Source: Paracoccaceae bacterium (GTDB lineage Bacteria > Pseudomonadota > Alphaproteobacteria > Rhodobacterales > Rhodobacteraceae). Taken from it: a stretch of 64,000 nucleotides of DNA. The notes under the pieces were generated by a model. It worked only from the letters and a program-made list of their open reading frames with translations. It was not told the DNA's origin and made no database searches. A program made the translations under genes and the position numbers. The stretch spans positions 1 to 64,000 of the forward strand of contig JACONK010000001.1 of the NCBI GenBank assembly GCA_014323795.1, written 5' to 3'. Below are positions 4,054 to 17,633 of the stretch, piece by piece. How positions within the stretch are numbered: the stretch's first letter is position 1; each line of letters opens with the position of its first letter.

Positions 4054-4853
4054 GGGTCACCCGCGTAGGGCACTTTTGTGGTGTCGGTCGTCAGTGCAGC
4101 CCCCGCCCGAATAAAGGGGCGGGAAATTTCCCTCCATATTTTGGCCAGGCCCCCTGGCTTGCCCGGCAGCATAATTTTCTGTTCGCGCAGGCTTTCCGCC
4201 CGGTCCGCGTCCAGTGTACTTTCCGGCGGTTCGGCCCCCTGGAAAAAGCGGTGCTGCACACAGATGGCCGGGTCCAGCTGCCAGATTTGCAGATGCTGTG
4301 TCACACCGAACTGCGGATTAAAAAGGATATGATCTGCGGCGTCGCATTTATCCGCCGTTTCGCGCAGCAAAATCTCTGCCCCTTGTTTTGAAATAAAATA
4401 TCCTGCCGTCCCGCCGTGATAGGATAACAGCCGCCGCAGGGCATGCCCATGGGGCCGGGCGGCGGGTTTCCGGGACATCCTGATCTTTTGACGGCAGGTT
4501 TCAGCCTTGACCATATCCGCCTGCGCGGGCAGCCAGTCGGTGTGCGTAAAAAACCGGGCCGCGTTGGCAAAACGTATGTCATCTTCGGCGATGAAGGCCC
4601 AGTTCGCCGTGTCGTCAACAACCTGCTGCCATGCGGCCCGGTGGCTTAGAAAACAGCCCATTTCCCTTGGCCCAAGGGGCAGATGGCCTGATCTTTTTGC
4701 AAACAGCCGGGTGCGGGTGGCACTGTCGATGGTTGTGCCATCCACGGCCGCAATGCGGGTGTATTGGATGCCTGCAGCACGGGCCTGTTGGTCAAAGTCG
4801 GCCAGCCGGTCGGTGCTGCGGTCAAGATTAATCAGATAGCAATGGACTTTCAT
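4050..4853 (-). CDS. glycosyltransferase family 25 (LPS-type), copy 2
   Basis: A 267-residue GT25 protein and first gene of the three-gene coupled transferase operon. It has the N-terminal YLINLDRSTDRL signature, the REMGCFLSHRAAW motif near residue 63, FIAEDDIRF near residue 90 (the DxD-like acidic motif) and LSYHGGTAGYFIS near residue 148. Its architecture equals that of copy 1, so the pair probably arose by tandem duplication and then diverged, perhaps in acceptor use. The ATG at 4853 is the natural start: homology begins at residue 2. Upstream lies about 130 bases of AT-richer DNA before the initiator tRNA gene. The role in LPS core/O-antigen assembly is inferred from family. Confidence 0.82.
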   Translation of the reverse strand: MKVHCYLINLDRSTDRLADFDQQARAAGIQYTRIAAVDGTTIDSATRTRLFAKRSGHLPLGPREMGCFLSHRAAWQQVVDDTANWAFIAEDDIRFANAARFFTHTDWLPAQADMVKAETCRQKIRMSRKPAARPHGHALRRLLSYHGGTAGYFISKQGAEILLRETADKCDAADHILFNPQFGVTQHLQIWQLDPAICVQHRFFQGAEPPESTLDADRAESLREQKIMLPGKPGGLAKIWREISRPFIRAGAALTTDTTKVPYAGDP

Positions 4854-4980
4854 AAAACACCTGTCATTCTTAAATGGCGGGTGAGGCTTGCTAATTATCT
4901 TTTCAATAAATTACAAGGGCGGGACAAGAATTCACTTGTATCCCTTCCGGTTCATCCCTAAGTGCAGGATATCGGATTGG

Positions 4981-5057
<77 letters not shown>

Positions 5058-5229
5058 TGCCCGGCCGGTATCGGCACGGGGTATGCTTGGCCGCGGCTTT
5101 TCAGATTTTCAGGCTGTCCCGAACACACGCTCAGGGGGGCACCGCCTATCGCCCGTGCGCCGCCTTTGTGGCGGGCGGCACGGGTGTGGCCAATGTGGCG
5201 GGGCCGATGTTTCACAGGCGTTCTCGCGG

Positions 5230-5813
5230 TCAGATACCGCCGCCACAAAGGCGGTGCCAGGTTGCTCTCCGATTCTTATCGATACGCGGTGGCGGATAGG
5301 GAAGCGCATCTTCGTAGCCCTTTGCCACCGCTGCGCTATCCGTGCGGAAACGGTCGTAGACCTTTACAACCTCCTGCCCGACAGGGCCTGGCAAAGGTTG
5401 CCGCCGGGACCTGAACCTGCTGGTGAATTGTGCGACAGGGCTTTTACGCCTGACATCTTTGATCATGCCGATAAGGGCAGGCACGTCGGATGCGCAGAAG
5501 TTGTTGATGAGCGTCGGGGCACTGTCATAGCGCAGCGGCATGGCAGCGGGTTTCCAAGTGGCCTCGCCGAACGTGCCGTGGTGCCGCATCCTGACCGGCG
5601 GGGTGACATGAACAAGCCTGACCCCAAGGTGGCCGTTCTGGGCAAACGCGAACCGGGCCCCGTTGTGTTCGGTCAGTTTTTTTTCGGGTTCATCAGATTT
5701 TTCTGATGGCATCCTGTGCACCCGAAACTTCCGAATTCCCACAGGGGGTCGGTTCTCATCTCGTCCGGATTTTTAAGATCGGGCTGCCGAAGCATGACGA
5801 TGACGATGCGCAT
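5230..5813 (-). pseudogene. Nmad-cluster partner protein, frameshifted at an A8 tract
   Basis: A conserved-looking gene split over two frames. Frame one starts at the ATG at 5813 with MRIVIVMLRQPDLKNPDEMR and includes a CTGCH motif that could bind metal. It runs into a stop just after eight A's (T8 on the + strand, 5677-5684). The other frame continues the same protein through LVHVTPPVRMRHHG and PAAMPLRYDSAPTLINN to the stop at 5230. One extra or two fewer A's would join them into about 194 residues. The start lies directly after the Nmad2 reading frame, so coupling is likely. I do not recognise a named family; from context it is a third member of a nucleotide-modification-associated operon. 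The lesion may be true decay, sequencing error in a homopolymer, or a slippage site. Confidence 0.6.
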
Positions 5814-5814
5814 G

Positions 5815-6402
5815 TCAGCCACCCTCGGTGCAGCCACATGCTGCGCCCGCGTCCCGCGGTGCACCGTGAAAGCCGGGGGCGCAGGTTCGTTTCAACCAGG
5901 TGAGCAGGCTGTCATCGGCCTCAGGAACCATTTCATCGACACGGTGTCCCTAGCCTGAACCCGCACCCTTCCCGCCGATGGAACACCAGTGCAGATGCCC
6001 GGGCAGTTCCTGCGGGCTCTCTCCGAAATACCATGTCTCTTCCGGGTCAAAGATCAATACCGGTGCGCTCAGATCCTTGGACATCTCGCCGTTCTTTTCG
6101 TGATATCCGGGGCGCAGGCGTTCAGGATCCCTGTCAGGATGAAGCTTGTATACCGCGTCGCGACGCTTGGGGTAGGCGTAACGATTCGTGTATTCCGGCC
6201 ACCCGACAACTTCCGATACCCGTCCCGCATAGGCCAGCATGTGCCGGGGAAACGGGGAAGCTGCGAATGCGGCGATCAAATCACTGGCGCGTGCTGTTCT
6301 GCGAATTTTAGGTTTGCAGGTGGCAAGGGTAAGCATGCCATCCTGCGGACATGGGGCCGAACCGTTGTCTTCGGCCAGAACGTAGCGATAGAAGCGTGCC
6401 AT
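5815..6402 (-). pseudogene. Nmad2-domain protein interrupted by in-frame TAG
   Basis: The N-terminal part (150 residues from the ATG at 6402) resembles the nucleotide-modification-associated domain 2 family described by Iyer, Aravind and colleagues, with MARFYRYVLAEDNGSAP and the hallmark LATCKPKIRRTA near residue 27. A TAG at 5952-5950 stops it after GGKGAGSG. The same frame then continues for about 44 codons (GHRVDEMVPEADDSLLTWLK) and ends at a TGA at 5815-5817, 2 bases from the next start. The downstream part looks like the natural C-terminus, so a point nonsense mutation is likely. A Shine-Dalgarno-like agaagg precedes the ATG. The family is linked to DNA base modification by genomic context only; catalytic activity is unproven. 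Confidence 0.65.
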
Positions 6403-6466
6403 TTGTGTTACCTTCTCTGTCAGAGCTGCGGCCTTTCGGCCTGTTTTTCATGTCAATGCCTGTCAT

Positions 6467-7210
6467 TCACCTGTCGGCGTTGCTTTTCAATCCCGAAATC
6501 ACATCTGCGCACCAGTGCGCGGCGTCATCGCGTGCGCCTGCATCGGCAATAAATTCCTGCCCGCGGGCGGCGGCGTTCAGCCCGTCGGCCCCTGTCCAGC
6601 GCGCTGCCTGTGCGTGATATGTCAGGCCGGTCTCGCGCAGCCATTGCGGAACGCGCCAGCAGCTGGCCCGGTGCCCGGGCCGCGTCAGGCGCAGGTCATC
6701 CCGGGCTGTGTCGGCGGCATGTCCGCACCCCAGGTACAGGGTATTGTTCCGGTTCCATTCCCCGAGCGTGTGCGGATGACGCCGCCTGAACCCGGCGGGC
6801 TGATCCTGGGCGGCCGGATGCGGCCCCAGCGGGATCACCTCTTCAACCTGCAAATATCCGAAGAATCGGTGGTGCCGATTCCGGGTACCCGGCTCAGCGA
6901 AAAGCCCGAAAAACAGGAAGACATCGCCAACACCGACGGCGTTGTTGGAAAGATGAGCCTGCGCACTCCCGGTTTGGCCAAAGGCGCATCGGCCTGATTC
7001 AAACATGGGGTCGTGATGGCAAAGATTGCCGCCCGCAATCCGCCCTTTGGTCACGTCCTCCACAACCTTTGCGAGTCCGAGATCAGCATAGGTGGTTACG
7101 GACCGATGAGCGGTCGGAATCGGGAGGGAGGTCGGCCTGCCGTCAATAATCGGCGATGGGGCCTTGCCCGCGGCAGTGTCAAAACCTTTCCTGCTGAAAA
7201 TGATTTTCAT
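6467..7210 (-). CDS. Nmad3-domain protein
   Basis: An intact 247-residue protein starting MKIIFSRKGFDTAAGKAPSP, the characteristic opening of nucleotide-modification-associated domain 3 proteins. It continues with the family pattern LPIPT (about residue 31), VEDVTKGRI, CHHDP and GQTGSAQAHL (about residue 79), and GVGDVFLFFGLF (about residue 92). Near the C-terminus AAARGQEFIAD also fits. The family occurs in operons with DNA-modification genes in phages and bacteria; its biochemical role is unknown. It is the first gene of the Nmad trio: 64 bases before Nmad2, which in turn abuts the third gene. No lesion is visible here, in contrast to its two partners. Family assignment is from memory of the motif, function is inference. 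Confidence 0.75.
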   Translation of the reverse strand: MKIIFSRKGFDTAAGKAPSPIIDGRPTSLPIPTAHRSVTTYADLGLAKVVEDVTKGRIAGGNLCHHDPMFESGRCAFGQTGSAQAHLSNNAVGVGDVFLFFGLFAEPGTRNRHHRFFGYLQVEEVIPLGPHPAAQDQPAGFRRRHPHTLGEWNRNNTLYLGCGHAADTARDDLRLTRPGHRASCWRVPQWLRETGLTYHAQAARWTGADGLNAAARGQEFIADAGARDDAAHWCADVISGLKSNADR

Positions 7211-7335
7211 GCCAATCCGTCCGGGGCCTCATCCCCGTTGTGCGCTGCGTTTTCCGGTACCGCGCCGTCGAAACCGCCGACAGGGCCGCGCCCTGCGGGT
7301 ATTGCGGGCGGCAGGGCAGCACACCATGTTCGGCC

Positions 7336-10300
7336 TCAGATCTCGTGAATGACCGGCGGCACATCACAAACTTCCCTGGCGATTTCGACAACATGGCGGT
7401 GATGGGTCAGGTAGATGGCCTGGCCGCTTCGGCCAATCCGCTCCATCAGGCGGCAGGCGGCCCGCGTACGTTCCTCATCAAAGGTTTCAAAGACGTCGTC
7501 GCAGAAGAAAGGCAGCCGCACACCCTGTGCCACATACAGTTCATAGGCCGCGGCCCGCAGCGCGAGGTAGAGCTGGAACCGGGTTCCTTTTGACATGGCA
7601 CTGATCTGCTTTGGCGTACCGGTCGCATCCACCGCCAGCAGGATTTCCGACGCACCGTCCGGTTGTGTCTGCAGCTTCCGGTAGGCACCGTTGGTGAGCT
7701 CCGCAAAGGCACGCTCGGTGGCGGCCATCATGTCGCCCCGATGTTTGTCGCGATAGCGGCGGATGGCCTCTTCGGCCAGGCGCAGGCCGAAGTCCCGCTT
7801 CAGGTAATCGAGAACTGTTTCCTCAATCTGCATCTGCACGGTTGTGCGCTGCCCGACCAGTTCGGCAACTTCTGCACTGCCCGTGATGTTGTCGCGATCC
7901 CGGTCAGCATGCGCCCGGGCAACAGTGGCGTCGGATAATCGTTTTTCTGCACGGCCAATATCGGCCTCCAGCGATTCACGCTGTGCCGCGAGGTCTGCAG
8001 CCGTCTTGTCGGCCAGCCGATCACGGGCCTCGTCAATCCTCTGCAACGAGAGATCGTCAAGAATCTGCTGTTCGATTTTGGCGAGCCGTTCTCTCTTTCC
8101 GATGACGTCAAGGCCCGTGTTAACGGCGGTCCGCAGGGTGCCAATGGTGCTGGTATCCACCGAATTTGGAAATACTGCACCAAGTTCCGTCACCTTCCTG
8201 TCAATGTTTTCGAGTGTCGCATTGAGCTCCGTGTGCCGCGTTGCACCCTCTTCCAGCCTGGTGCCTAGATCCTCGTAGCGCGCCTTGTCCGCCTGCGCCT
8301 TGTCTGCAACGTCCCGCAAGTGCCGGAACATCTCGAGAGGGGCACTTCCCGCGATGTCAAAACGTGCAGCAAGGGCGGCGATGGCTTCCGTAAACCGGTG
8401 CTGGTCATTCTGCATCGCCGAAACCTGGCGTTCGGCCTGTCGCCGCTGCGCGTCGTATTCGCGCAAATCCCGCAACTGCCCTGGCGCGGCGGCAAGCCTG
8501 TCGGGTGACAGCACTTCGCCGAAAAGATCACGCACCCTGGTATTCCATGCCTCAGCCGCCTTTATGGAGGCGTCGTCAAAGGCAGTTTGCACATCTTGTC
8601 GGCGTTCAATTTCCTTTTCAAGATCGGCGATCTTGTCGGATGCCTTGCGCATCTTTTCCTGGTAATCCCGCTCGCCCACGGCAAGACTCCGTGCAGCCCG
8701 CACCGCTGCATCGAATGTCGGGGTTTCCAGCCCGGCGAGCGGTGCGAGCTGCTGCCGAAACTGTTCTGCCCGGTCCAGCGTCCCCCGGTGCTGTTCGGCC
8801 AGCCTGTCCCGTTGCCGCCTGGCGGCTGTGGCCCTGGCGTGGCGTTCAACCCAGTCAGAAAAAGCGGCAGGGGAAAGTGCCGGAAGGCCGATCTTCGCGG
8901 AAAGGTGGTGAACCTGGCCCTCGATCTCTCGCGCCTGCTCAATGAATCCATTGTGCTGTTCCCTGATCTTCGTGGCGCGATCTTGCGCGTCCGCCAGATC
9001 CTGCCGCAGCTTTCGCAGTTCGCCGAGCTTATCGGCGTGGATGAGCCGGGCCGCGTTGATGTCATCCACTTTTTTCATCGCGGGCGCAAAGATGTCTGCG
9101 CTCTCCGGGGTCAAGGTATCGCGATGTGCCTGCCACAGGGCGTCGCGCCGGGCCTGCGCGGCCCGTGCCTCTTCATCACTGGCGATTCCGGCACTTTCCG
9201 AAAGGCCGGTCTTTGCCTTCAGTCCGGCAATTTTTTCCTCGAATTCCTCCAGCCTGTCGGCCTTGCGCCTGATCTTCCCGGTCAGGTCGGCGTAGCGTTC
9301 GGCAATTTCGGCTGCCGTCGGCGAATCAACCGGGCAATCGGGGAGTGCGCTGAAAGTGCAGGTACCTGTGGAAAGCGCATCGAGTGCCTCTTGCAGCGCA
9401 GTATTGGCAGACGCGATAGCTTGTCTTGCCGTGGCGACCTCTGGTGCCAAGGCGTCAGCGTCAAATCGCTCCATCACATCCAGCACCCCCGTCCGGGTCG
9501 GTGGATTTTCCAGCAAAACCTGACGTGATTTTTGTGCTTCAGCGAAGCGTGTCTGCAGCTCTGCGATCTCGCACTGTCCGGTTTCCCGGTTGCCGGCCGC
9601 CGTGCGCATCTTGTCGCGCAAATCCTCAAGGGTGGTGATATCTGCCGAAGCTATGACAAGGTCTGTCACAGCGCAGTCTTCGGGTGCGCCCAGGTCACGG
9701 GCGATATGCCTCATGTCTGAAATCGCATTCAGACGGGCCTGTTCGCGGCGGGGAAGATCCCGCAAAGCCGGCTTCATCCGGCTGTGCAGTTCATCCAGGT
9801 CGTCAAGCTGTGCGCCGAGGGCGAGGCTTTCTGCGTTTATAACCAGGGCCGTACGCTTTTTCCGGATACTGTCGAGATCGTCAACCAGCCGTTGCAACTC
9901 GGTATCTGCCTGTATCCGGTCGTTCATCAGCGTGTCCAGGGATTCGGGATTGATATCAATCCTCTCGGGGTACCCGGCGTAATCCGCGACCTCGTCCATA
10001 AGGCTGTCAAACTCGCGCAGATTGGGCATGGCCCGGCACAGCGCGGCGATCCGGGCTTTTTCGGCGCGAAGCGCGTCTCGTCCCACCCGCGCCTTTTCTT
10101 CTTCATCCCTGGCGGTCTGAAGCGCATCCTTCAGCTTCCACCACGCATGGGCGTTGACATCGATCTCCCGGATTTTGTTTTCAATATCACGCAGTTCGTG
10201 CTTCAGTTTCGCGACCCGGGTGGTGCTGGCCCGCTTCTTGTAAAGGTTGCCTGCTTCGGTCCGCGCCTGTTCAAGAACAGCGTTGAGGTCCGCGACACCG

Positions 10301-10761
10301 GCCGCGGCAGAAAACAGCATCCGGCCAATATCCCCTCGCGCACTGGCGATGTCTTCACCGCCCCTTTCTATGGTGTTGTCGTCAAGGCAAAGCAGACTGC
10401 GATAATCTTCAATCGACAGCCCGCCAAGGTGCGCTGTGATTGCTGTTTCAGGCAGGGGCGTGTCCGCCCCGTCCCTTAGGTTGTCACTGCGGGACGGCAG
10501 CCGTGTGAACACGCGGGTTTTCCCGCCGATATCGAAAAGGCCGGAAACCCGGAGGTTTTTTCGCTGGTGTCGGAAATCGTAGGGTTCCCGATGGGGAAAG
10601 CCATAGAGAAGACGCAGATAGGCTTCCATCGCGGTGGTCTTGCCCGCTTCGTTCAAGCCGTAGATCAGATGAAAATCCGAATCCTGCCCGGCAGTTCCGA
10701 AATCGAGAACCCTGCCCGTGAAATGACCGAAAAAATCAAGAGAGAGCTGTTCGATTCGCAT
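7336..10761 (-). CDS. YhaN/SbcC-like SMC-type ATPase
   Basis: A 1141-residue ATPase of the YhaN/SbcC type. Walker A GLNEAGKTT is at residues 35-43. It is followed by the family segments RLLYGFPHREPYDFRH and LLCLDDNTIERGGEDI, then roughly 850 residues of heptad-rich coiled coil (long runs of E, R, A and L with no globular motif). At the C-terminus come the ABC-like signature AMSKGTRFQLYLALRAA and Walker B FFCDDVFETFDEER near 1085-1100, then a switch-like LTHHRH. Such proteins pair with a calcineurin-like nuclease to process DNA ends. The nuclease gene is immediately upstream and overlaps by one base (TGATG), so the two form a complex by family precedent. This subunit is intact while its partner is frameshifted. 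Confidence 0.88.
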   Translation of the reverse strand: MRIEQLSLDFFGHFTGRVLDFGTAGQDSDFHLIYGLNEAGKTTAMEAYLRLLYGFPHREPYDFRHQRKNLRVSGLFDIGGKTRVFTRLPSRSDNLRDGADTPLPETAITAHLGGLSIEDYRSLLCLDDNTIERGGEDIASARGDIGRMLFSAAAGVADLNAVLEQARTEAGNLYKKRASTTRVAKLKHELRDIENKIREIDVNAHAWWKLKDALQTARDEEEKARVGRDALRAEKARIAALCRAMPNLREFDSLMDEVADYAGYPERIDINPESLDTLMNDRIQADTELQRLVDDLDSIRKKRTALVINAESLALGAQLDDLDELHSRMKPALRDLPRREQARLNAISDMRHIARDLGAPEDCAVTDLVIASADITTLEDLRDKMRTAAGNRETGQCEIAELQTRFAEAQKSRQVLLENPPTRTGVLDVMERFDADALAPEVATARQAIASANTALQEALDALSTGTCTFSALPDCPVDSPTAAEIAERYADLTGKIRRKADRLEEFEEKIAGLKAKTGLSESAGIASDEEARAAQARRDALWQAHRDTLTPESADIFAPAMKKVDDINAARLIHADKLGELRKLRQDLADAQDRATKIREQHNGFIEQAREIEGQVHHLSAKIGLPALSPAAFSDWVERHARATAARRQRDRLAEQHRGTLDRAEQFRQQLAPLAGLETPTFDAAVRAARSLAVGERDYQEKMRKASDKIADLEKEIERRQDVQTAFDDASIKAAEAWNTRVRDLFGEVLSPDRLAAAPGQLRDLREYDAQRRQAERQVSAMQNDQHRFTEAIAALAARFDIAGSAPLEMFRHLRDVADKAQADKARYEDLGTRLEEGATRHTELNATLENIDRKVTELGAVFPNSVDTSTIGTLRTAVNTGLDVIGKRERLAKIEQQILDDLSLQRIDEARDRLADKTAADLAAQRESLEADIGRAEKRLSDATVARAHADRDRDNITGSAEVAELVGQRTTVQMQIEETVLDYLKRDFGLRLAEEAIRRYRDKHRGDMMAATERAFAELTNGAYRKLQTQPDGASEILLAVDATGTPKQISAMSKGTRFQLYLALRAAAYELYVAQGVRLPFFCDDVFETFDEERTRAACRLMERIGRSGQAIYLTHHRHVVEIAREVCDVPPVIHEI

Positions 10762-11988
10762 CAGGATATCGCCCCCTTCATTTGGGCGAGGATTCTCTCT
10801 GCGCCATCCGTCGCAAGACGTTGCGCAAGCCGGTCCATCGCAGCTTCATCGGGCAGCAGCCTGTCGCGCTGTTGCTGCGTCAGCTCCTGCAGAATATCTT
10901 CGATGCCTGTGCGGCAGATATTGGAAAAGCCCGGTTCCTCGCGGATACCCTTCATAATCCCGGCCAGCTCATCCGTTGCACTGTGACCGGGTTGCGCGGT
11001 GTCGGACAGGTTGAACACAACCTTGTCCAGCCAGAGGGTGCCCGTGTTTCGGGCATATTGCGCCGCGGTGTCCCGCCAGATGTCCTGATCACGCAATATC
11101 TGCCAGCGCCGGCGCGTGTGTCCGACCAGTTCCAGGCGCACTACGGCGTTGTCTGACGCCAGGTTGCGCGCCGTGTCCTGCAGGGTTTGTCTTAGCCGAT
11201 TCCGCAGGGCATCGTCGTTATCGGTATCTGTGGCGTTGATACGCAGGTGCAGGAATTCTACTGCTGAGGTCGGCACTTCCTCGATCTCAGTCCCTTTATT
11301 AATTGGTCAAAAGCGTGGCGGATTTCGGACCGGGCTCGCCGATATCCCGCCCCTGGGGCGTTCCGGGCATCACAACCCATGGTGCCTCGGAGTGGACCTG
11401 CCGACTGTGAACATGGCCCAGGGCCCAGTAATCGAAGCCAGCGGCTGTCAGGTCACCAACCGTACAGGGTGCGTAGGGGTCATGCCCCGCGGCACCCATG
11501 AGAGAGGTATGCAGCATCGCTATGTTGATCGCACCCGCAACCGGCGCGGGAAATTTCGGCAGCAGGCTTTCCGGGGCATGGCGGCCAGCGAAACTGACGC
11601 CGTGGATCCAGACGTTCTCTGCGAGTTTAACCTTGCCGCCGCGGCCGTCAAAGACATGCACATTGTCGGGCAGGGCCAATGCACCGGTAAGAGGATTCTC
11701 GGCGTCGTGATTGCCCTTGATATAGAACACACGAATCCCGCGCTCCCGCAGGTGTTCCAGTTGCACGGTCAGGAAGGCGACTGTCTGTGCGCTCCGCTCT
11801 GCCCCGTCAAACAGATCGCCTGCAATCAGCAGGGCGGCAGCATCCCTCTCAACGGCACTGCTGATGATTCTGGTGAGCGCGGTGCGGCTGGCTGTCTGAA
11901 CCCGTTCCCGCAGATCGGGGTCTCGCAACGCGAGGGATTTTAACGGGGAGTCGAGGTGCACGTCAGCCGTGTGAAGAATTCTGATCAT
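10761..11988 (-). pseudogene. SbcD/YhaM-like metallophosphoesterase, single frameshift
   Basis: A DNA repair exonuclease of the calcineurin-like family, partner of the YhaN-type ATPase downstream. The catalytic half (from the ATG at 11988) has every metal motif: HTADVHLD, AGDLFD, KGNHDAE, MLHTS and GHVHS. It runs to a stop at 11299-11301 shortly after the GEPGPKSATLL that normally precedes the capping domain. A second frame carries the rest, EIEEVPTSAVEFL to the end at 10761 (about 171 residues). Removing one base in the AT-rich stretch near 11298-11306 would restore a ~405-residue protein. As read, only the catalytic domain would be made, without the C-terminal part expected to contact the ATPase. 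A sequencing error is a serious alternative, since this is the only lesion. Confidence 0.75.
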
Positions 11989-12280
11989 TTACGGGTGCCT
12001 TGTTCCGGACGTCATATCCTGTTTTGGGAAGACCATCTTCCCCCGGTATCGGGGTTTTGCCAACGGGCCGGTCCGGTTTGTTCCGCCGGTTGCGGGCAAA
12101 ATTTTCCCTGCCATCAGTGCGGGCTGACAGGTTTGCCAACAGGAATATATTGAGCCAACTTTCAGCTGGATTCTAAACGGGTTGATGCGGTGATCAAGGG
12201 TATATTTTGACAAGGCGGGTGCTTCCCGCATCAGCCGCCGCATTTCAAAACCGATATTTCCACGTGTCGGGGCCACCCTG
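11989..12280. other. intergenic, no gene seen
   Basis: About 290 bases separate the helicase stop from the nuclease start on the same strand. I see no conserved frame, RNA or strong hairpin. The segment may hold the nuclease-ATPase promoter; none can be placed with confidence. Confidence 0.4.
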
Positions 12281-14014
12281 TCAAATCGGCCAGTCCGTTT
12301 CGAAGTGACGGAACAGCGGTTCAATCTGCCGCGGAATTTCACCCCTGAACGTTATCCCCAGATATTCTGCGGCACGGGTTGCCCCGACATAGAGGTAATT
12401 TAAAAACAGACATGGATACCTGGAAACAGTCTGATCCATATCGATAAAGAAAACGGCCTCAAACTCCAGCCCTTTGATGTGATGGATATTGAATATCCGC
12501 ACATCCCGGTCATCGCCGGCAACATGCCCATCCTTACAGGCTGTGGCGGACATGTTGATGTCTTTCAGCCGGGCGTTCAGAGCCCGTTCCAGGGGTTCGG
12601 CCTGGTCTTCCTCATTGACCAGAACAGCAATCGTCGTGGCATCTTCAACACTTCGATTGATCTGATGGATGCGCTTTGTCAGCCACGCCGCAACGGCGGC
12701 GGGGTCACCAAGGTTTGGGTGCCAGACGGGTGCTAAACCTTCCGCATCAAGGTGTTCGGGCGGGGCGATGTTATCCGCCCGAGATCCGCCAAGGGTTGCG
12801 ATTTCCTGCGCAAGGTTCACGAGTTGTTGACTTTGGCGGTATGATCTGGTTATCGTCCTGCGCACAATCCCTTTATTTATCCAGTCCAGTGCTTCATTCG
12901 ATTTGATGCCCCAGGACGTCAGCCGCTGATTGATATCGCCGCACAGAAAGAGCGAACCGATTGAAGGATGCGCAATCTCGTTCATGCAAGCGAGCTGCAC
13001 CCGCGAAAAGTCGGTCGCCTCATCAACCAGAACCTGTGCCCTTTGAATGTATCGGACGTACGCAAGGGGCCCGGCCGATGGAAGTTCAGAACCCGCCCGG
13101 CCCCGATAATAACCCAACAGTTCATTAGCGATCCGGAGTGTTGCAAGGATTACGAGGTCAAGTTCCTGCCAGTGGATATCCGACGAATTGGGCGGTATAG
13201 CCTTGTACCAGTGCCCCGTCTTTGCCTTTTGGGTGCGGAAGTGTTTGTATACCCTTGGGATACGGCGAAAGAACAGCTGTTCAAGACGCTCGAACTTCCG
13301 AAGGCGTGATTTTTCGGCCAACAGCTTGCCGAGTTTAGCAATCTCGTCTTCTTCCGGGATGCGGTCAGGGCCCAGCCAATCAAGAATCCTGCCGTTTTGC
13401 GACTTCTGCGAAACATATTTTTGGTTCTGCCGTGCCTTTGCCAAAGCCTTCAGGGCGCGTTCAAGGTGCATGCGCCCTTTCTGCAGGCTGACCCGCCGGA
13501 CCCTGGGCGCGGCGGTCTGTGCGTCCGCAGCGTCCGGTGCTTCTTTCTCATCAGCATCGTGAGAGACAACAGCCTGCTGCAGGGATATTTCCTGGATAAG
13601 CAAATTCCGGTCTTTTTGCCTGAAATGAAACGTCTCCTCGTCTCCGGCTGCGAGAGAAGCAATACGGCCAAGCGGGGCCCTGTAGCTCGCAACCGTGAAC
13701 CCGTGTATCGAAGGGGGAGTGCTGCGGCTGACAAAGATCGTGTAGTCTTCATCATTTTCGCCGATAGCGTGTATGCGGGCGATAACAGGTTCCCTTCTCA
13801 ATGCCAGTGCCGCCTTGTAATTTTCATCCCCGGCCTCCCGGAGGCGGTCAACCTGCCGGGGGTTATTCAATGTATTAACGCTTGCAAATACGCTTGCAGT
13901 GCCTGGCTGGCGGGACGTCAGTGCGGCTTTTGCCTGTTCTGCCACCTTCTCGATGCAGGTGAGCGAATCGTCCGCTATTTCCGCAAGGATGGCTTCTTTT
14001 TGCGCCTTTGTCAT
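12281..14014 (-). CDS. UvrD/REP-like SF1 helicase lacking Walker A
   Basis: A 577-residue protein with the C-terminal motor motifs of superfamily 1 helicases: motif II VLVDEATDFS (about residue 330), motif III-like CGDINQRLTSWG, motif IV-region SYRQSQQL, motif V HIKGLEFEAVFF (about 508) and motif VI YLYVGATRAAEYLG (about 537). No GxxxxGK[ST] Walker A sequence can be found anywhere, although related helicases carry it a few hundred residues before motif II. The start at 14014 is supported by a good Shine-Dalgarno (ggaaaggaag) and by MTKAQKEAIL. Upstream codons in the frame are not protein-like. Either an in-frame deletion removed the ATP-binding loop, or this is a non-hydrolysing relative. It is the first gene of the one-directional array leading to the nuclease, ATPase and Nmad genes. 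Confidence 0.75.
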   Translation of the reverse strand: MTKAQKEAILAEIADDSLTCIEKVAEQAKAALTSRQPGTASVFASVNTLNNPRQVDRLREAGDENYKAALALRREPVIARIHAIGENDEDYTIFVSRSTPPSIHGFTVASYRAPLGRIASLAAGDEETFHFRQKDRNLLIQEISLQQAVVSHDADEKEAPDAADAQTAAPRVRRVSLQKGRMHLERALKALAKARQNQKYVSQKSQNGRILDWLGPDRIPEEDEIAKLGKLLAEKSRLRKFERLEQLFFRRIPRVYKHFRTQKAKTGHWYKAIPPNSSDIHWQELDLVILATLRIANELLGYYRGRAGSELPSAGPLAYVRYIQRAQVLVDEATDFSRVQLACMNEIAHPSIGSLFLCGDINQRLTSWGIKSNEALDWINKGIVRRTITRSYRQSQQLVNLAQEIATLGGSRADNIAPPEHLDAEGLAPVWHPNLGDPAAVAAWLTKRIHQINRSVEDATTIAVLVNEEDQAEPLERALNARLKDINMSATACKDGHVAGDDRDVRIFNIHHIKGLEFEAVFFIDMDQTVSRYPCLFLNYLYVGATRAAEYLGITFRGEIPRQIEPLFRHFETDWPI

Positions 14015-14360
14015 CGGTCTGTTCTTCCTTTCCGGTTCAATTGCATCCCGCCTTTGAACGTCCGGTATTGGCCGGACCATGCAAGCCGTGTGTTTGGTGT
14101 GCCTGCTGTTATCCTCCGCGGAAAACTGATCGCATGTATCCCGGGTGTACCCGCTCAATCTGCCTGACATCTGTGACATCAACAGACTTTGGAACGGTTG
14201 GGAACATGTCAAGGCGTCCGCCCGCCGTTGCCAACTTTTACACTGGCCTTGCCAGGCGGCTGATACTCCGGGTGCCTGTCGGCCATACCTGACGAACATC
14301 TTAACCCGATCCTGCCTGGCGGGGCTGGTGCGGTGACTTCGGCCAGGGTGCCCGATCATT

Positions 14361-14960
14361 TTGAATGTGGCACGCAGCCTCTGTGCTGCATCAAGATATG
14401 GCCGCGAATGTGGCGTGACAACAAAACCGGCGACAGGGCTGCCGGGCAAGGCGGGACAAACACTCAGCTTCGGCTTCCTGAAATCAGGTGCACACATCTA
14501 CATTGCCGTATCCGGCGGAATTGCCACAGACCCCGATTCCGGGAGTCGTTCGACCTGTCTGGTCGGGGCACCTAGCGGTGTTGAGGGACGTCTTATAGCC
14601 GATGGTGACACTACTCCGGTTGGCGAAAGTGACATGTCTTCGTCAGGTCGAACGGTAGCGACCCAAATGTGCCGTGGTCCCGGAAGTCCTGCAGAACTCC
14701 GTGTCCTGCCAAGGCCTTATTGGAACGGGCTTACAGAAGCCGCACAGGACGGTTGCTTTGGGGACGCATGGATGGTTGCCCCCGAGGCGGACCGTATGGG
14801 TTACCGTTTCAAGGGAAGCCGTACTCTAATTCGTTGAACGGGAACAACCGTTTGGGGCGGGAGCCGATCCATCCAGCATCGCAGACGGGTGCTATTCCTG
14901 TGGCTCCATCCAGGTTCCTCGCCCAACGCAATTCCCTAAATGATCTCTGGTATCCTGTCT
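14361..14960 (+). pseudogene. 5-oxoprolinase subunit C (PxpC/KipA) remnant
   Basis: Remains of a biotin-dependent carboxyltransferase-domain protein (PxpC/KipA family), which with PxpA and PxpB hydrolyses 5-oxoproline. Recognisable blocks are LSFGFLKSGAHIYIAVSGGI, GSRSTCLVGAPSGVEGR, LRVLPRPYWNGLT and DAWMVAPEADRMGYRFKG in one frame. After a stop, a second frame gives FGAGADPSSIADG and GSIQVPRPTQFPK. The N-terminal part and the final third are missing or unrecognisable. At least one frameshift and one truncation are present, and no PxpA or PxpB gene is nearby. The 3' end abuts the IS256 remnant, whose insertion may have removed the rest. Confidence 0.7.
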
Positions 14961-14985
14961 GATCCGTCAATTTTCACCATTTTGT

Positions 14986-15760
14986 CTACGCCGACATTAT
15001 CAGTCTGAAGGTCATTGCGCCCCCTGTTTTGCGGTTGAGGCAGCCTTTGGTTTTTCCTGTGCGGTGGCGAACGGTAGCGCAGGCACTTTCGATGGGATTG
15101 GTCGTGCGGATGTGCTGCCAATGCTCTGCGGGGAAGTCATGGAAAGTGCGCAGCGCATTCAGAACACTGCCGGTTTTATGGAACCGGCCGCGCTGTTCAC
15201 AGGTGTTGCCAAATACCTCACGCAATGCGGCCCGGAAACCAGGGGCACCGTCTCCGGCGGCGAGACCGGAAGCCCGGGACAGACCCCGCCTTTTGAGTTC
15301 AAGGAGCAGTTCCCGCCAGCATCGGGTGGTTTCACGGTAACGGCCTGCCAGGCCCAGGATTTCTGTGCGCCCCCATTCGTTTGCTCCAACCAGCACCGGA
15401 ACACATTATTTTCCTCCATACCCGGCCGGAAACAGACACCATCGGCCCAGACAGAGACGATGCGCCGGGCGCAGCGGTCGCGCCACAGCCAACGCTCACA
15501 ATTTTCTCGCCAACCCGCTTTGAGCCGTGAGATGGTGGTGGACGACAGGTGCGCCGCGTTCGGTCCGCACGGAGCCGCCGGAGCCTTCTGAAAGTTCCCG
15601 TGGAGATGCCCCCGAGGCAAAGTCAGGTCAGTAATTCTTTCACTGATTTGGCCTTGCGAAGATACAGTGGCACAATCGAGGAGGGGAACCGCACTTTCCC
15701 AGCCTGCTGCCCTCGGCCCCCCGTGGAACTTTCACGGCAACCGGGCCGATGCCGGTCATG
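14986..15760 (-). mobile_element. IS256-family (mutator) transposase remnant
   Basis: Fragments of an IS256-type transposase lie in three frames on the minus strand. From N to C they are TGIGPVAVKVPR, PLYLRKAKSVKELL, GISTGTF/GNFQKA, SRLKAGW (transposase core), VSVWADGVCFRPGMEE (catalytic-domain block), RGLSRASGLAAGDGAPGF (the GDGALGFW-like motif) and IRTTNPIESACATVRHRT (C-terminal signature). Only the middle and C-terminal parts are seen; internal frameshifts and a stop make it non-functional. Terminal inverted repeats were not found by eye. It sits between the pxpC wreck and the tRNA-Ser gene, at the edge of the helicase-nuclease-Nmad array. Confidence 0.82.
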
Positions 15761-15799
15761 ATATCGCGCCCGGTTCTGCCTCAAACGCCCGTTCAGTCA

Positions 15800-16187
15800 A
15801 TTGCCATGCGCCGGAAAAGCGGTGATGGTATCTTTCGTCAGGTGGCATATCCCTTTCCCGGCAGAGAATTGACGGCCGGGGAACAGCACCACAACATACC
15901 GCCACCCAGGGCCGGCATCAAATTTCAGATATTTCTCGCTTGCGTACGTTGGGGATGCTGTCGGACCTGTTGCCTGGCAATGCGCCCGCCGAAACATTAT
16001 CAACGGGCCGATTAAATTCTGCGCGGGACAGGTTCAGCACAGCCGACCCGTGCAGGATCCCCAACCCAAAAATTGTTTCTCCGGATGTGTGACCAGCCAT
16101 CGGGCAAGAGCGGGTGTAAAGGGCTATATTATCTGATCTGCAAACATCTTGCGCCCCGGGCAAGGAATACCTAAGCAGTGTAGCGTC
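15800..16187. other. no gene seen (about 390 bp)
   Basis: The DNA between the IS256 remnant and tRNA-Ser shows no frame with family-like sequence. It may contain further decayed sequence of the element or its target. The last ~60 bases presumably include the tRNA promoter. Confidence 0.4.
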
Positions 16188-16277
16188 GGACAGGTGGCCG
16201 AGTGGTCGAAGGCGCACGCCTGGAACGCGTGTAGGCGGGGAACCGTCTCCAGGGTTCGAATCCCTGTCTGTCCGCCA
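16188..16277 (+). tRNA. tRNA-Ser (GGA)
   Basis: A 90-base class II tRNA with encoded CCA: acceptor ggacagg pairing with cctgtcc, anticodon loop ctggaacg (GGA), a long variable arm (taggcggggaaccgtctcc) and T-loop gggttcgaatccc. It is a complete cloverleaf by eye. Confidence 0.95.
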
Positions 16278-16619
16278 TTTACCCCTGAAAACTGTTTGCC
16301 CGCGCCGGCTTTGGCTGGGTTTTCCCGCTGCATTACAAGGCTGTACGGGCAGGTTCCGGGCCATCCCGGATGTTTGGCTGTTCCTGAACCCGGTCCCTGG
16401 GGTAGCCCCTGCGGGGGGTATCCGCGCCACAACCGAAAGGCACGACCGGGATATTCCCGGAGCTTTGGGTGTCCTGGTTCGCGGGGGCGTCAGGGACGTG
16501 GTGCGGGCCATGGGCGGCACCGGCATCAGGCGGCCTGCGGAAAAGCACCTGGAGGGCGGGCAAAAATACCGCAAAAACCGCGGCGGAAGTTTACGCCAAT
16601 TGGCGCAGGGGATGCCGAT
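16278..16619. other. no gene seen (about 340 bp)
   Basis: Between tRNA-Ser and the broken acyl-CoA dehydrogenase no conserved frame is visible. An open frame crosses part of it on the plus strand, but the sequence before residue MQYGPSERQ does not look like protein. Confidence 0.4.
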
Positions 16620-17633
16620 ATGCAGTACGGACCAAGCGAGCGGCAGGAGCTGATTGTATCCACCGTTCGGTCTTTTGTGGAAAAGGAGTTCTATTCCCAC
16701 GAAACACTGGTGGAGCGCACTGGAAAGGTGCCCCGCGAGATCGCTGAAGAGATCAAACGCAAAACCCTCGATCCTGGGTTTTACGCCTGCAACTTTCCCG
16801 AAAGCGTGGGCTGTGCCGGGCTCAGCCATGTGGATTTCATGCTGGTAGAACGGGATCTCGGGCGCGGATCGATGGCACTCAGCCATTTTTTCGGGTGACT
16901 GCAAAACATCCTGATGGCCTGTGAAGGGGAACAGGTCGACCGCTACCTGATGCCCGCCGTGCGTGGTGAAAAGATGGACGCACTGGCGATGACAGAACCC
17001 GGTGCCGGCTCCGACGTGCGCGGGATGAAATGTGCCGCAATACGCGACGGTGGCGATTGGGTGATCAACGGAACGAAGCATTTCATCTCTGGTGCGGAGC
17101 ACGCGCATTTCGTGATCGTCTTTGTGGCCACAGGGGAGGATCAACCCCCCCGGAGTTTGAAAAAGCGCATCACCTGCTTTCTGGTTGATCGCGGGCATCC
17201 CGGCTTCATCATTCGCGACGGCTACAGGTCCGTCAGCCACCGGGGCTACAGGAACATGGTACTCGACTTCGACGATTGCCGCCTGCCGGTGTGGCGGCGG
17301 TGCTTGGTGAGGTTGACAACGGGTTCAACGTGATGAACACCTATGATCACCGAGATCGACGCCGCGGATATGCTGACGCTGTCCGCGGCGGCTCGCTTGG
17401 ATAAAGGCATGCCGTCAAACCGGCAGATTGCAAGCGCGAAACTCTACGCTTCCGAAATGCTCGCACGGGTGACGGATGCCGCGGTCCAGGTTCACGAAGG
17501 CATGGGGCTGATGGACGACTTGCCGCTCGAACGCTTCTGGCGCGACGCCAGGGTGGAACGCATATGGGACAGAACATCCGAGATCCAGCACCACATCATC
17601 AGCCGCGACCTGTTACGGCCGCTGGGGGCATAA
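16620..17633 (+). pseudogene. acyl-CoA dehydrogenase, broken
   Basis: A flavin acyl-CoA dehydrogenase in three pieces. The N-terminal helical domain starts MQYGPSERQELIVSTVRSF and runs to HFFG, where an in-frame TGA (16896-16898) replaces a sense codon. The same frame continues with [23 protein letters not shown], the FAD/substrate motif, and ISGAEHAHF. After CRLPV the frame is lost. About 40 residues that normally hold the start of the C-terminal helical domain are missing, and the end resumes in another frame with MITEIDAADMLTL and VQVHEGMGLMDDLPLER, which includes the cofactor-binding signature. A nonsense mutation plus a deletion with frameshift make loss of function certain if the sequence is right. 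The broken acyl-CoA synthetase at 19061 is a likely former pathway partner. Confidence 0.9.

Follow-up and report, generated by a model that had tools for sequence, protein, structure and literature searches.

Nmad3 and a recurrent CxxCH partner protein beside nuclease and helicase genes in a Paracoccaceae genome: a possible modified-base reader unit

The DNA analysed here, hereafter the window, comprises the first 64,000 nucleotides (nt) of contig JACONK010000001.1 of a Paracoccaceae bacterium (assembly GCA_014323795.1). It carries six minus-strand genes (~14014 to 5230; Table 1), among them those of Nmad3 and of a CxxCH-containing protein, termed the third protein, whose association is our main subject. 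Pfam named five of the six products: a helicase, an SbcD-like protein, a YhaN-like protein, Nmad3, and Nmad2. As the preliminary description of this DNA had it, the array lies between a tRNA gene (tRNA-Met, 4981-5057, plus strand) and the remnant of a Mutator-type transposase (Transposase_mut, E 1e-14; 14986-15396), which we take to be of IS256 type. Its assignments of Nmad3 and Nmad2 also held, the matches reaching 229.5 bits against a gathering score of 27 (PF18754) and 72.6 bits against 26.1 (PF18753), the latter over profile positions 1-156 of 200, corresponding to the first 150 amino acids (aa), before the stop. The third gene starts, again as described, directly after the Nmad2 frame (start at 5813, one base past the end of a frame whose stop is at 5815-5817).

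Table 1. Features of the six-gene array in the window
Feature	Position	Strand	Remarks
Inverted repeat	5157..5257	none	18-nt arms; spans end of third gene; putative terminator (repeat search)
Third protein, CTGCH motif	5230..5813	-	frame change near 5680; matches to third-protein profile at 5679-5819 (E 6e-25) and 5218-5685 (E 2e-72)
Nmad2 (PF18753)	5815..6402	-	one in-frame stop (TAG) at 5950-5952; frame runs on to 5815; Pfam E 4e-20
Nmad3 (PF18754)	6467..7210	-	247 aa, open frame; Pfam E 6e-68
YhaN-like ATPase	7336..10761	-	1141 aa, open frame; AAA_27 E 4e-61
SbcD/YhaO-like phosphoesterase	10761..11988	-	frame split near 11276-11301; Metallophos E 4e-12
UvrD-like helicase	12281..14014	-	lacks ~310 internal residues, including P-loop; UvrD_C_2 E 4e-13

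The third protein, for which the preliminary description had no name, indeed matched no family in Pfam, NCBIfam, PADLOC, or PHROGs, whether the query was its two window pieces (nothing over the cut-off) or 10 intact relatives (nothing at E 0.01). A profile built from ten aligned intact relatives recognized both window pieces (Table 1). The aligned proteins begin close to the conserved domain, and their invariant columns include WEFGSFGCT plus the C and H of the CxxCH motif, which may be a metal site.

Loci were collected with an Nmad3 profile, which gave the 80 best among at least 440 matches in genome contigs and 7 from viral contigs; with two further loci from plasmids, this gave 89 loci, 88 of them distinct (L016 and L087 are one contig; L denotes loci and G genomes). 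The third protein was present in 14 of the 89, always encoded on the same strand and either immediately following Nmad3 or fused with it. Across ten unfused loci (L006 left out), the distance from the Nmad3 stop to the third start was -35 to +13 nt, being -8 in four and -4 in one. One stop-free frame covers both proteins in L018, L021, and L022, which belong to one clade and perhaps reflect one fusion event; L021 and L022 have a methionine at the expected third-protein start, where translation may also begin. Samples of the class, phylum, and family (289, 398, and 394 genomes, overlapping) yielded only the window's own third gene, i.e., 0/288, 0/397, and 0/393 other genomes, a negative result that is weakened by the scoring of only part of the first-look candidates in each genome (e.g., 7 of 28). 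Of the 83 loci that lack an adjacent third protein, 47 Nmad3-bearing genomes or records were searched, and one decayed copy was detected, in G706. Because of this adjacency, fusion, and co-distribution, we regard joint action of the third protein and Nmad3 as well supported, a link that the preliminary description had drawn.

Nmad2 was found beside Nmad3 in 8 of the 88 distinct loci, directly downstream of it in L003, L008, L016 (= L087), L030, L034 (a fragment), L035, and L048; in L091, where Pfam identified it, it lies upstream. Eight further loci (L102-L109) added two with Nmad2 upstream (L103 and L109), and 10 of the 53 Nmad3 genomes examined contained Nmad2. The window Nmad2 is 67% identical to that of L016. 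Both partners occurred together only in the window among the 97 Nmad3 loci; the fixed trio of Nmad2, Nmad3, and third protein that had been proposed is thus rejected. The viral-collection contig L091 (5632-9553) encodes a WYL regulator, Nmad2, Nmad3, and DUF1643 consecutively, and DUF1643 may be another Nmad3 partner.

Nmad3 was detected in 8 of 397 other genomes of the phylum sample and in none of 60 relatives of the window genome, including 32 congeners; because of this distribution, the window genome probably acquired the gene. The window Nmad3 is 77% identical to that of L085, and on a tree of 97 Nmad3 rows it joins L085 first, L006 next, and L005 after that (supports 100/87, 99/86, and 99/88). 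The third protein directly follows Nmad3 in these three loci, whereas the window has Nmad2 between them. Presence of the third protein required 5 changes on this tree (shuffled mean 14.2; 0/500 shuffles as low), and presence of Nmad2 required 8 (shuffled mean 9.7; 21/500 as low), with the window row carrying the label "third" only. The simplest reading would be that one part of the tree inherited the Nmad3-third pairing and lost it in places, and that Nmad2 entered between the two genes in the window's lineage. Nonsynonymous and synonymous divergences (dN/dS) were 0.16/1.06 for Nmad3 against L085, 0.14/0.65 for the C-terminal part of the third protein, and 0.25/1.99 for Nmad2, values whose weight is reduced by some dS estimates near saturation and one control pair without dS. 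Since dN is below dS throughout, all three genes appear to have been under protein-level constraint for much of their history.

Two chromosomal settings were observed in more detail. Nmad3-third pairs stand beside the same gene row in L009 (11585-16253) and L012 (11581-16249), and because the adjoining genes are the same, the pair is, as judged from gene order, settled in one chromosomal place in this gammaproteobacterial lineage. Loci L036-L084, mostly Erythrobacteraceae, carry Nmad3 (~10001-10730) without either partner; valine-degradation genes, with names read from translations, accompany it in L037 and in 28-29 of 47 other loci, as would be expected for a vertically inherited chromosomal gene.

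A structural model of Nmad3 (48 sequences) had a predicted local distance difference test score (pLDDT) of 94.3 and a predicted template modeling score (pTM) of 0.92. Ranks 1-7 of its PDB comparison were three entries or chains of human THYN1 (two with 5-methylcytosine DNA), two of PH1033, PSPTO5229, and Q88CH6, the last three proteins being, we presume, EVE-domain proteins. THYN1 is an EVE protein according to the accessible parts of an EVE/DCD review (PMC7641849), in which "Nmad" is not mentioned. Profile comparison aligned Nmad3 with 21 EVE proteins over 19 columns around a GD motif (P 0.0035; reversed controls 0.47 and 0.51) and with Nmad2 over 140 columns (P 0.006; reversed 0.13); against the third protein, P was 0.13 (reversed 0.41). 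On profile evidence, we considered and rejected a common origin of the third protein with Nmad2, Nmad3, or EVE proteins: its comparisons with Nmad2 and EVE were no better than the reversed controls. Pfam gave no EVE match for the window Nmad3, Nmad2, or third-protein pieces. Sequence searches of the PDB gave Nmad3 two hits, at E 0.29 and 0.42, and matched the third protein to four viral fibre chains, at E 0.64-0.82, all of which we attribute to chance. The third-protein model was less firm (pLDDT 79.9, pTM 0.81; residues 34-42, including CTGCH, under 50), and a viral structure library gave it nothing under E 0.001. The YTH entries and 2ar1 (presumably EVE) that rank highest for it in the PDB amount to a hint, no more.

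We tentatively favor, with a confidence somewhat short of even, the view that Nmad3 reads modified bases and works with exchangeable partners, that it is apart from the nuclease unit, and that its operon is decaying in the window genome. In the proposed mechanism, a small operon built on Nmad3 would stand beside a separate nuclease-helicase unit; Nmad3 would be a PUA-like (EVE/YTH-type) domain recognizing bases of DNA or RNA that are modified or damaged; and its partners would act in an Nmad3 complex as effector or second reader, with the CxxCH of the third protein possibly binding a metal. A bolder version, in which Nmad3 founds an unrecognized bacterial family of modified-base readers that takes Nmad2 or a novel CxxCH protein as its partner and has become a standing chromosomal gene in Erythrobacteraceae, seems to us rather unlikely; if it is true, Nmad3 and its partners would be surveillance proteins and not makers of modified bases.

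Several results weigh against the reader interpretation. The structural neighbors include no match under E 0.001: ranks 1-7 have E values of 0.077-0.29, TM scores of 0.18-0.29 by query length, and root mean square deviations of 7.8-10.6; unrelated entries begin at rank 8, and YTH, McrB N-terminal, and other PUA-like entries come lower. The five YTH entries and 2ar1 that lead the third-protein list have E values of 0.38-1.2. The profile comparisons numbered 13 and were uncorrected, hhalign probabilities were 9% (Nmad3-EVE) and 6% (Nmad3-Nmad2), and no likeness to EVE was found for Nmad2 (P 0.15; reversed 0.17) or the third protein (P 0.50; reversed 0.65). The residues invariant in Nmad3 (S6 R7 K8 G9, H65, D67, H147, Q218, and E219) would also suit an enzyme. 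As for the partners, 67 of the 89 loci had neither by profile (L091, with its Nmad2 found by Pfam, is among them), the L009 genome has an Nmad3-third pair plus an Nmad2 elsewhere, and the decayed third copy of G706, an OMG-group genome, is absent from the available DNA around its Nmad3 (L024). Keeping the 80 best of at least 440 matches favors close relatives of the window Nmad3, and a scan seeded with Nmad3 cannot reveal a third protein without it. Partners may be undercounted, since contig ends cut some loci and the flanks of L102-L109 are ~1.5 kb; the five-row Nmad2 profile missed the L091 gene, and the Nmad2 fragment of G719 has no assigned genome position. What Nmad3 reads and what its partners do are inferred.

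The Nmad family names suggest instead an enzyme module making a modified base or nucleotide, and the preliminary description had likewise proposed base hypermodification. The invariant polar residues of Nmad3 and the CxxCH of the third protein are in keeping with this, as are some neighborhoods: the viral-collection contig L086 encodes a ParB_N plus N6_N4 DNA methylase (7683-8948) 1.5 kb beyond the pair, L005 has a Prim-Pol gene and a sub-threshold phage terminase match (24.1 bits; cut-off 24.7) near it, and L091 has its Nmad2-Nmad3-DUF1643 row. We nevertheless consider an enzyme module doubtful. Inspection by eye of eight third-protein loci (L005, L006, L009, L011-L013, L021, and L086, with Pfam run on ten neighbor genes from L005, L011, and L086 only) showed no further constant neighbor, as might have been found beside such a module; the Erythrobacteraceae Nmad3 is solitary in a shared chromosomal place; and 50,697 phage records gave no tblastn match for the window Nmad3, Nmad2 piece, or third-protein C-terminal piece. 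The fold brought the hypermodification proposal no gain, the nearest solved neighbors being base readers, without significance.

A reader-like fold would also fit an anti-phage system in which the Nmad3 pair recognizes modified phage DNA. The neighbors of the pair vary between loci, L009 and L012 excepted; genes for a HARE-HTH protein and a UvrD-like helicase adjoin Nmad3 in L089, and L091 has its WYL regulator. Additionally, the accessible parts of the DefensePredictor study (PMC13092281) list an unspecified NMAD in one tested and one predicted system. Such a role is unlikely, given that PADLOC matched neither Nmad3, the Nmad2 piece, nor either third-protein piece at E 0.1, nor the ten intact third proteins at 0.01, that no constant nuclease accompanies the pair, and that the Erythrobacteraceae gene stands alone.

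Decay, the remaining element of the reader interpretation, concerns the window itself, where only the Nmad3 and YhaN genes of the six look intact. The Nmad2 frame continues past its in-frame TAG, still recognizably Nmad2; the third gene changes frame in an A-rich run; the SbcD-like gene is broken where four relatives (L122-L125) have a single frame; and the helicase is ~310 residues short compared with its relative in L155, whose GPPGTGKT falls in the missing stretch. Because both partner genes are broken, the Nmad operon appears to be in the process of being lost from this genome. A similar interruption of Nmad2 by one in-frame stop was seen in L008 (10742-11323), from a Rhodobacteraceae metagenome-assembled genome. 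Acyl-CoA dehydrogenase domains lie on separate frames at 16149-17630, and this split gene and the transposase fragment suggest decay in this part of the genome. Sequencing or assembly errors in an intact operon could be suspected from the A-rich run at one break and from an assembly in 37 contigs; we think them distinctly unlikely, as the clustered breaks differ in kind (an in-frame stop, two frame changes, and the loss of ~310 residues) and the split dehydrogenase and transposase fragment lie close by. Integration at tRNA-Met with a repeated 3' end was examined and discarded: the 22-base tRNA end is present once in the window, and a search from 4900 to 16000 found no direct repeat fitting such an event.

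The other three genes have associations of their own. A search with the window YhaN gave matches in 6 of 60 relatives, including a full-length relative in G034 (40% identical). An SbcD-like gene lies directly upstream of the YhaN-like gene in all four neighborhoods read (L122-L125), and both SbcD pieces of the window match one continuous frame in L122, L124, L125, and L123, the last cut by a contig edge. With the window helicase as query, 3 of the 148 other family genomes searched gave a match at E 1e-20 (L155-L157). In L155 (733-7053), a UvrD-like helicase frame of 937 residues, P-loop included (4243-7053), opens right behind the stop of the YhaN-like gene; no SbcD was found before YhaN, where the contig start cuts the stretch. 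L156 and L157 have the helicase (a 178-residue frame in L157), and no YhaN was found there. All three genes together were seen only in the window. Because SbcD-YhaN (L122-L125) and YhaN-helicase (L155) adjoin in relatives, the three probably belong together and may form a DNA-end-processing or defense set of their own. None of the 89 Nmad3 loci matched the window YhaN, SbcD, or helicase (E 1e-3; flanks of up to 10 kb, several shorter), the L122-L125 neighborhoods matched neither the Nmad genes nor the window helicase (L123 and L124 end near the genes), and no Nmad match was found in the stretches around the three helicases; because of this mutual absence, the nuclease-helicase and Nmad sets look like two neighboring units and not one system. 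A single six-gene system whose nuclease and helicase would act on the modification, as the preliminary description envisaged, could appeal to the shared strand and neighborhood and to the pairwise adjacencies in relatives, and is very improbable, largely refuted by these same loci. Nmad3 does have a UvrD-like helicase beside it in L089, but the window helicase does not match that one.

To our knowledge, Nmad2 and Nmad3 have been named from genomic context alone; a 2013 paper reportedly named the Nmad domains. A term search of a limited literature collection found no study of either protein and no mention of PF18753, PF18754, "Nmad2 domain," or "Nmad3 domain." As far as their accessible text goes, PMC10221047 names nucleotide modification associated domain 1, PMC8875630 names domain 5, PMC11846954 deals with Nmad5, and PMC11288001, on Roseobacter phages, gives such a domain without its number. 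A recurrent, sometimes fused partner and a fold hint toward base readers offer a concrete alternative to the modification idea. Cultured hosts suited to its study are Pseudoruegeria (L005) and Fluviibacterium (L006) for the pair and Qipengyuania for a solitary Nmad3. The Nmad unit is better studied in L005 and L006 than here because it appears to be decaying in the window genome, whereas the Nmad3 and third frames are both open in those loci.

Compared with known systems, the third protein shares CxxCH with c-type cytochromes, but the family cut-off was reached neither by the 10 relatives nor by the window piece, which matched the NCBIfam CxxCH cytochrome model TIGR01904 at 16 bits against a cut-off of 27. 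The genes at 7336-14014 in the window are of the same kind as an SbcCD-type YhaO-YhaN pair with a UvrD-like helicase; here they are apart from the Nmad genes, and the helicase and SbcD copies are broken. EVE-type proteins (THYN1 and three presumed ones), among EVE/THYN1, YTH, and PUA-like readers, are the nearest solved structures to the Nmad3 model, and a short GD motif aligns, but no match is significant and Nmad3, at ~240 aa, has invariant residues of its own. The window Nmad3 and Nmad2 match PF18754 and PF18753 over the cut-offs, and the third protein is in neither family; whereas those family names imply modification, the fold hint obtained here is that of a reader.

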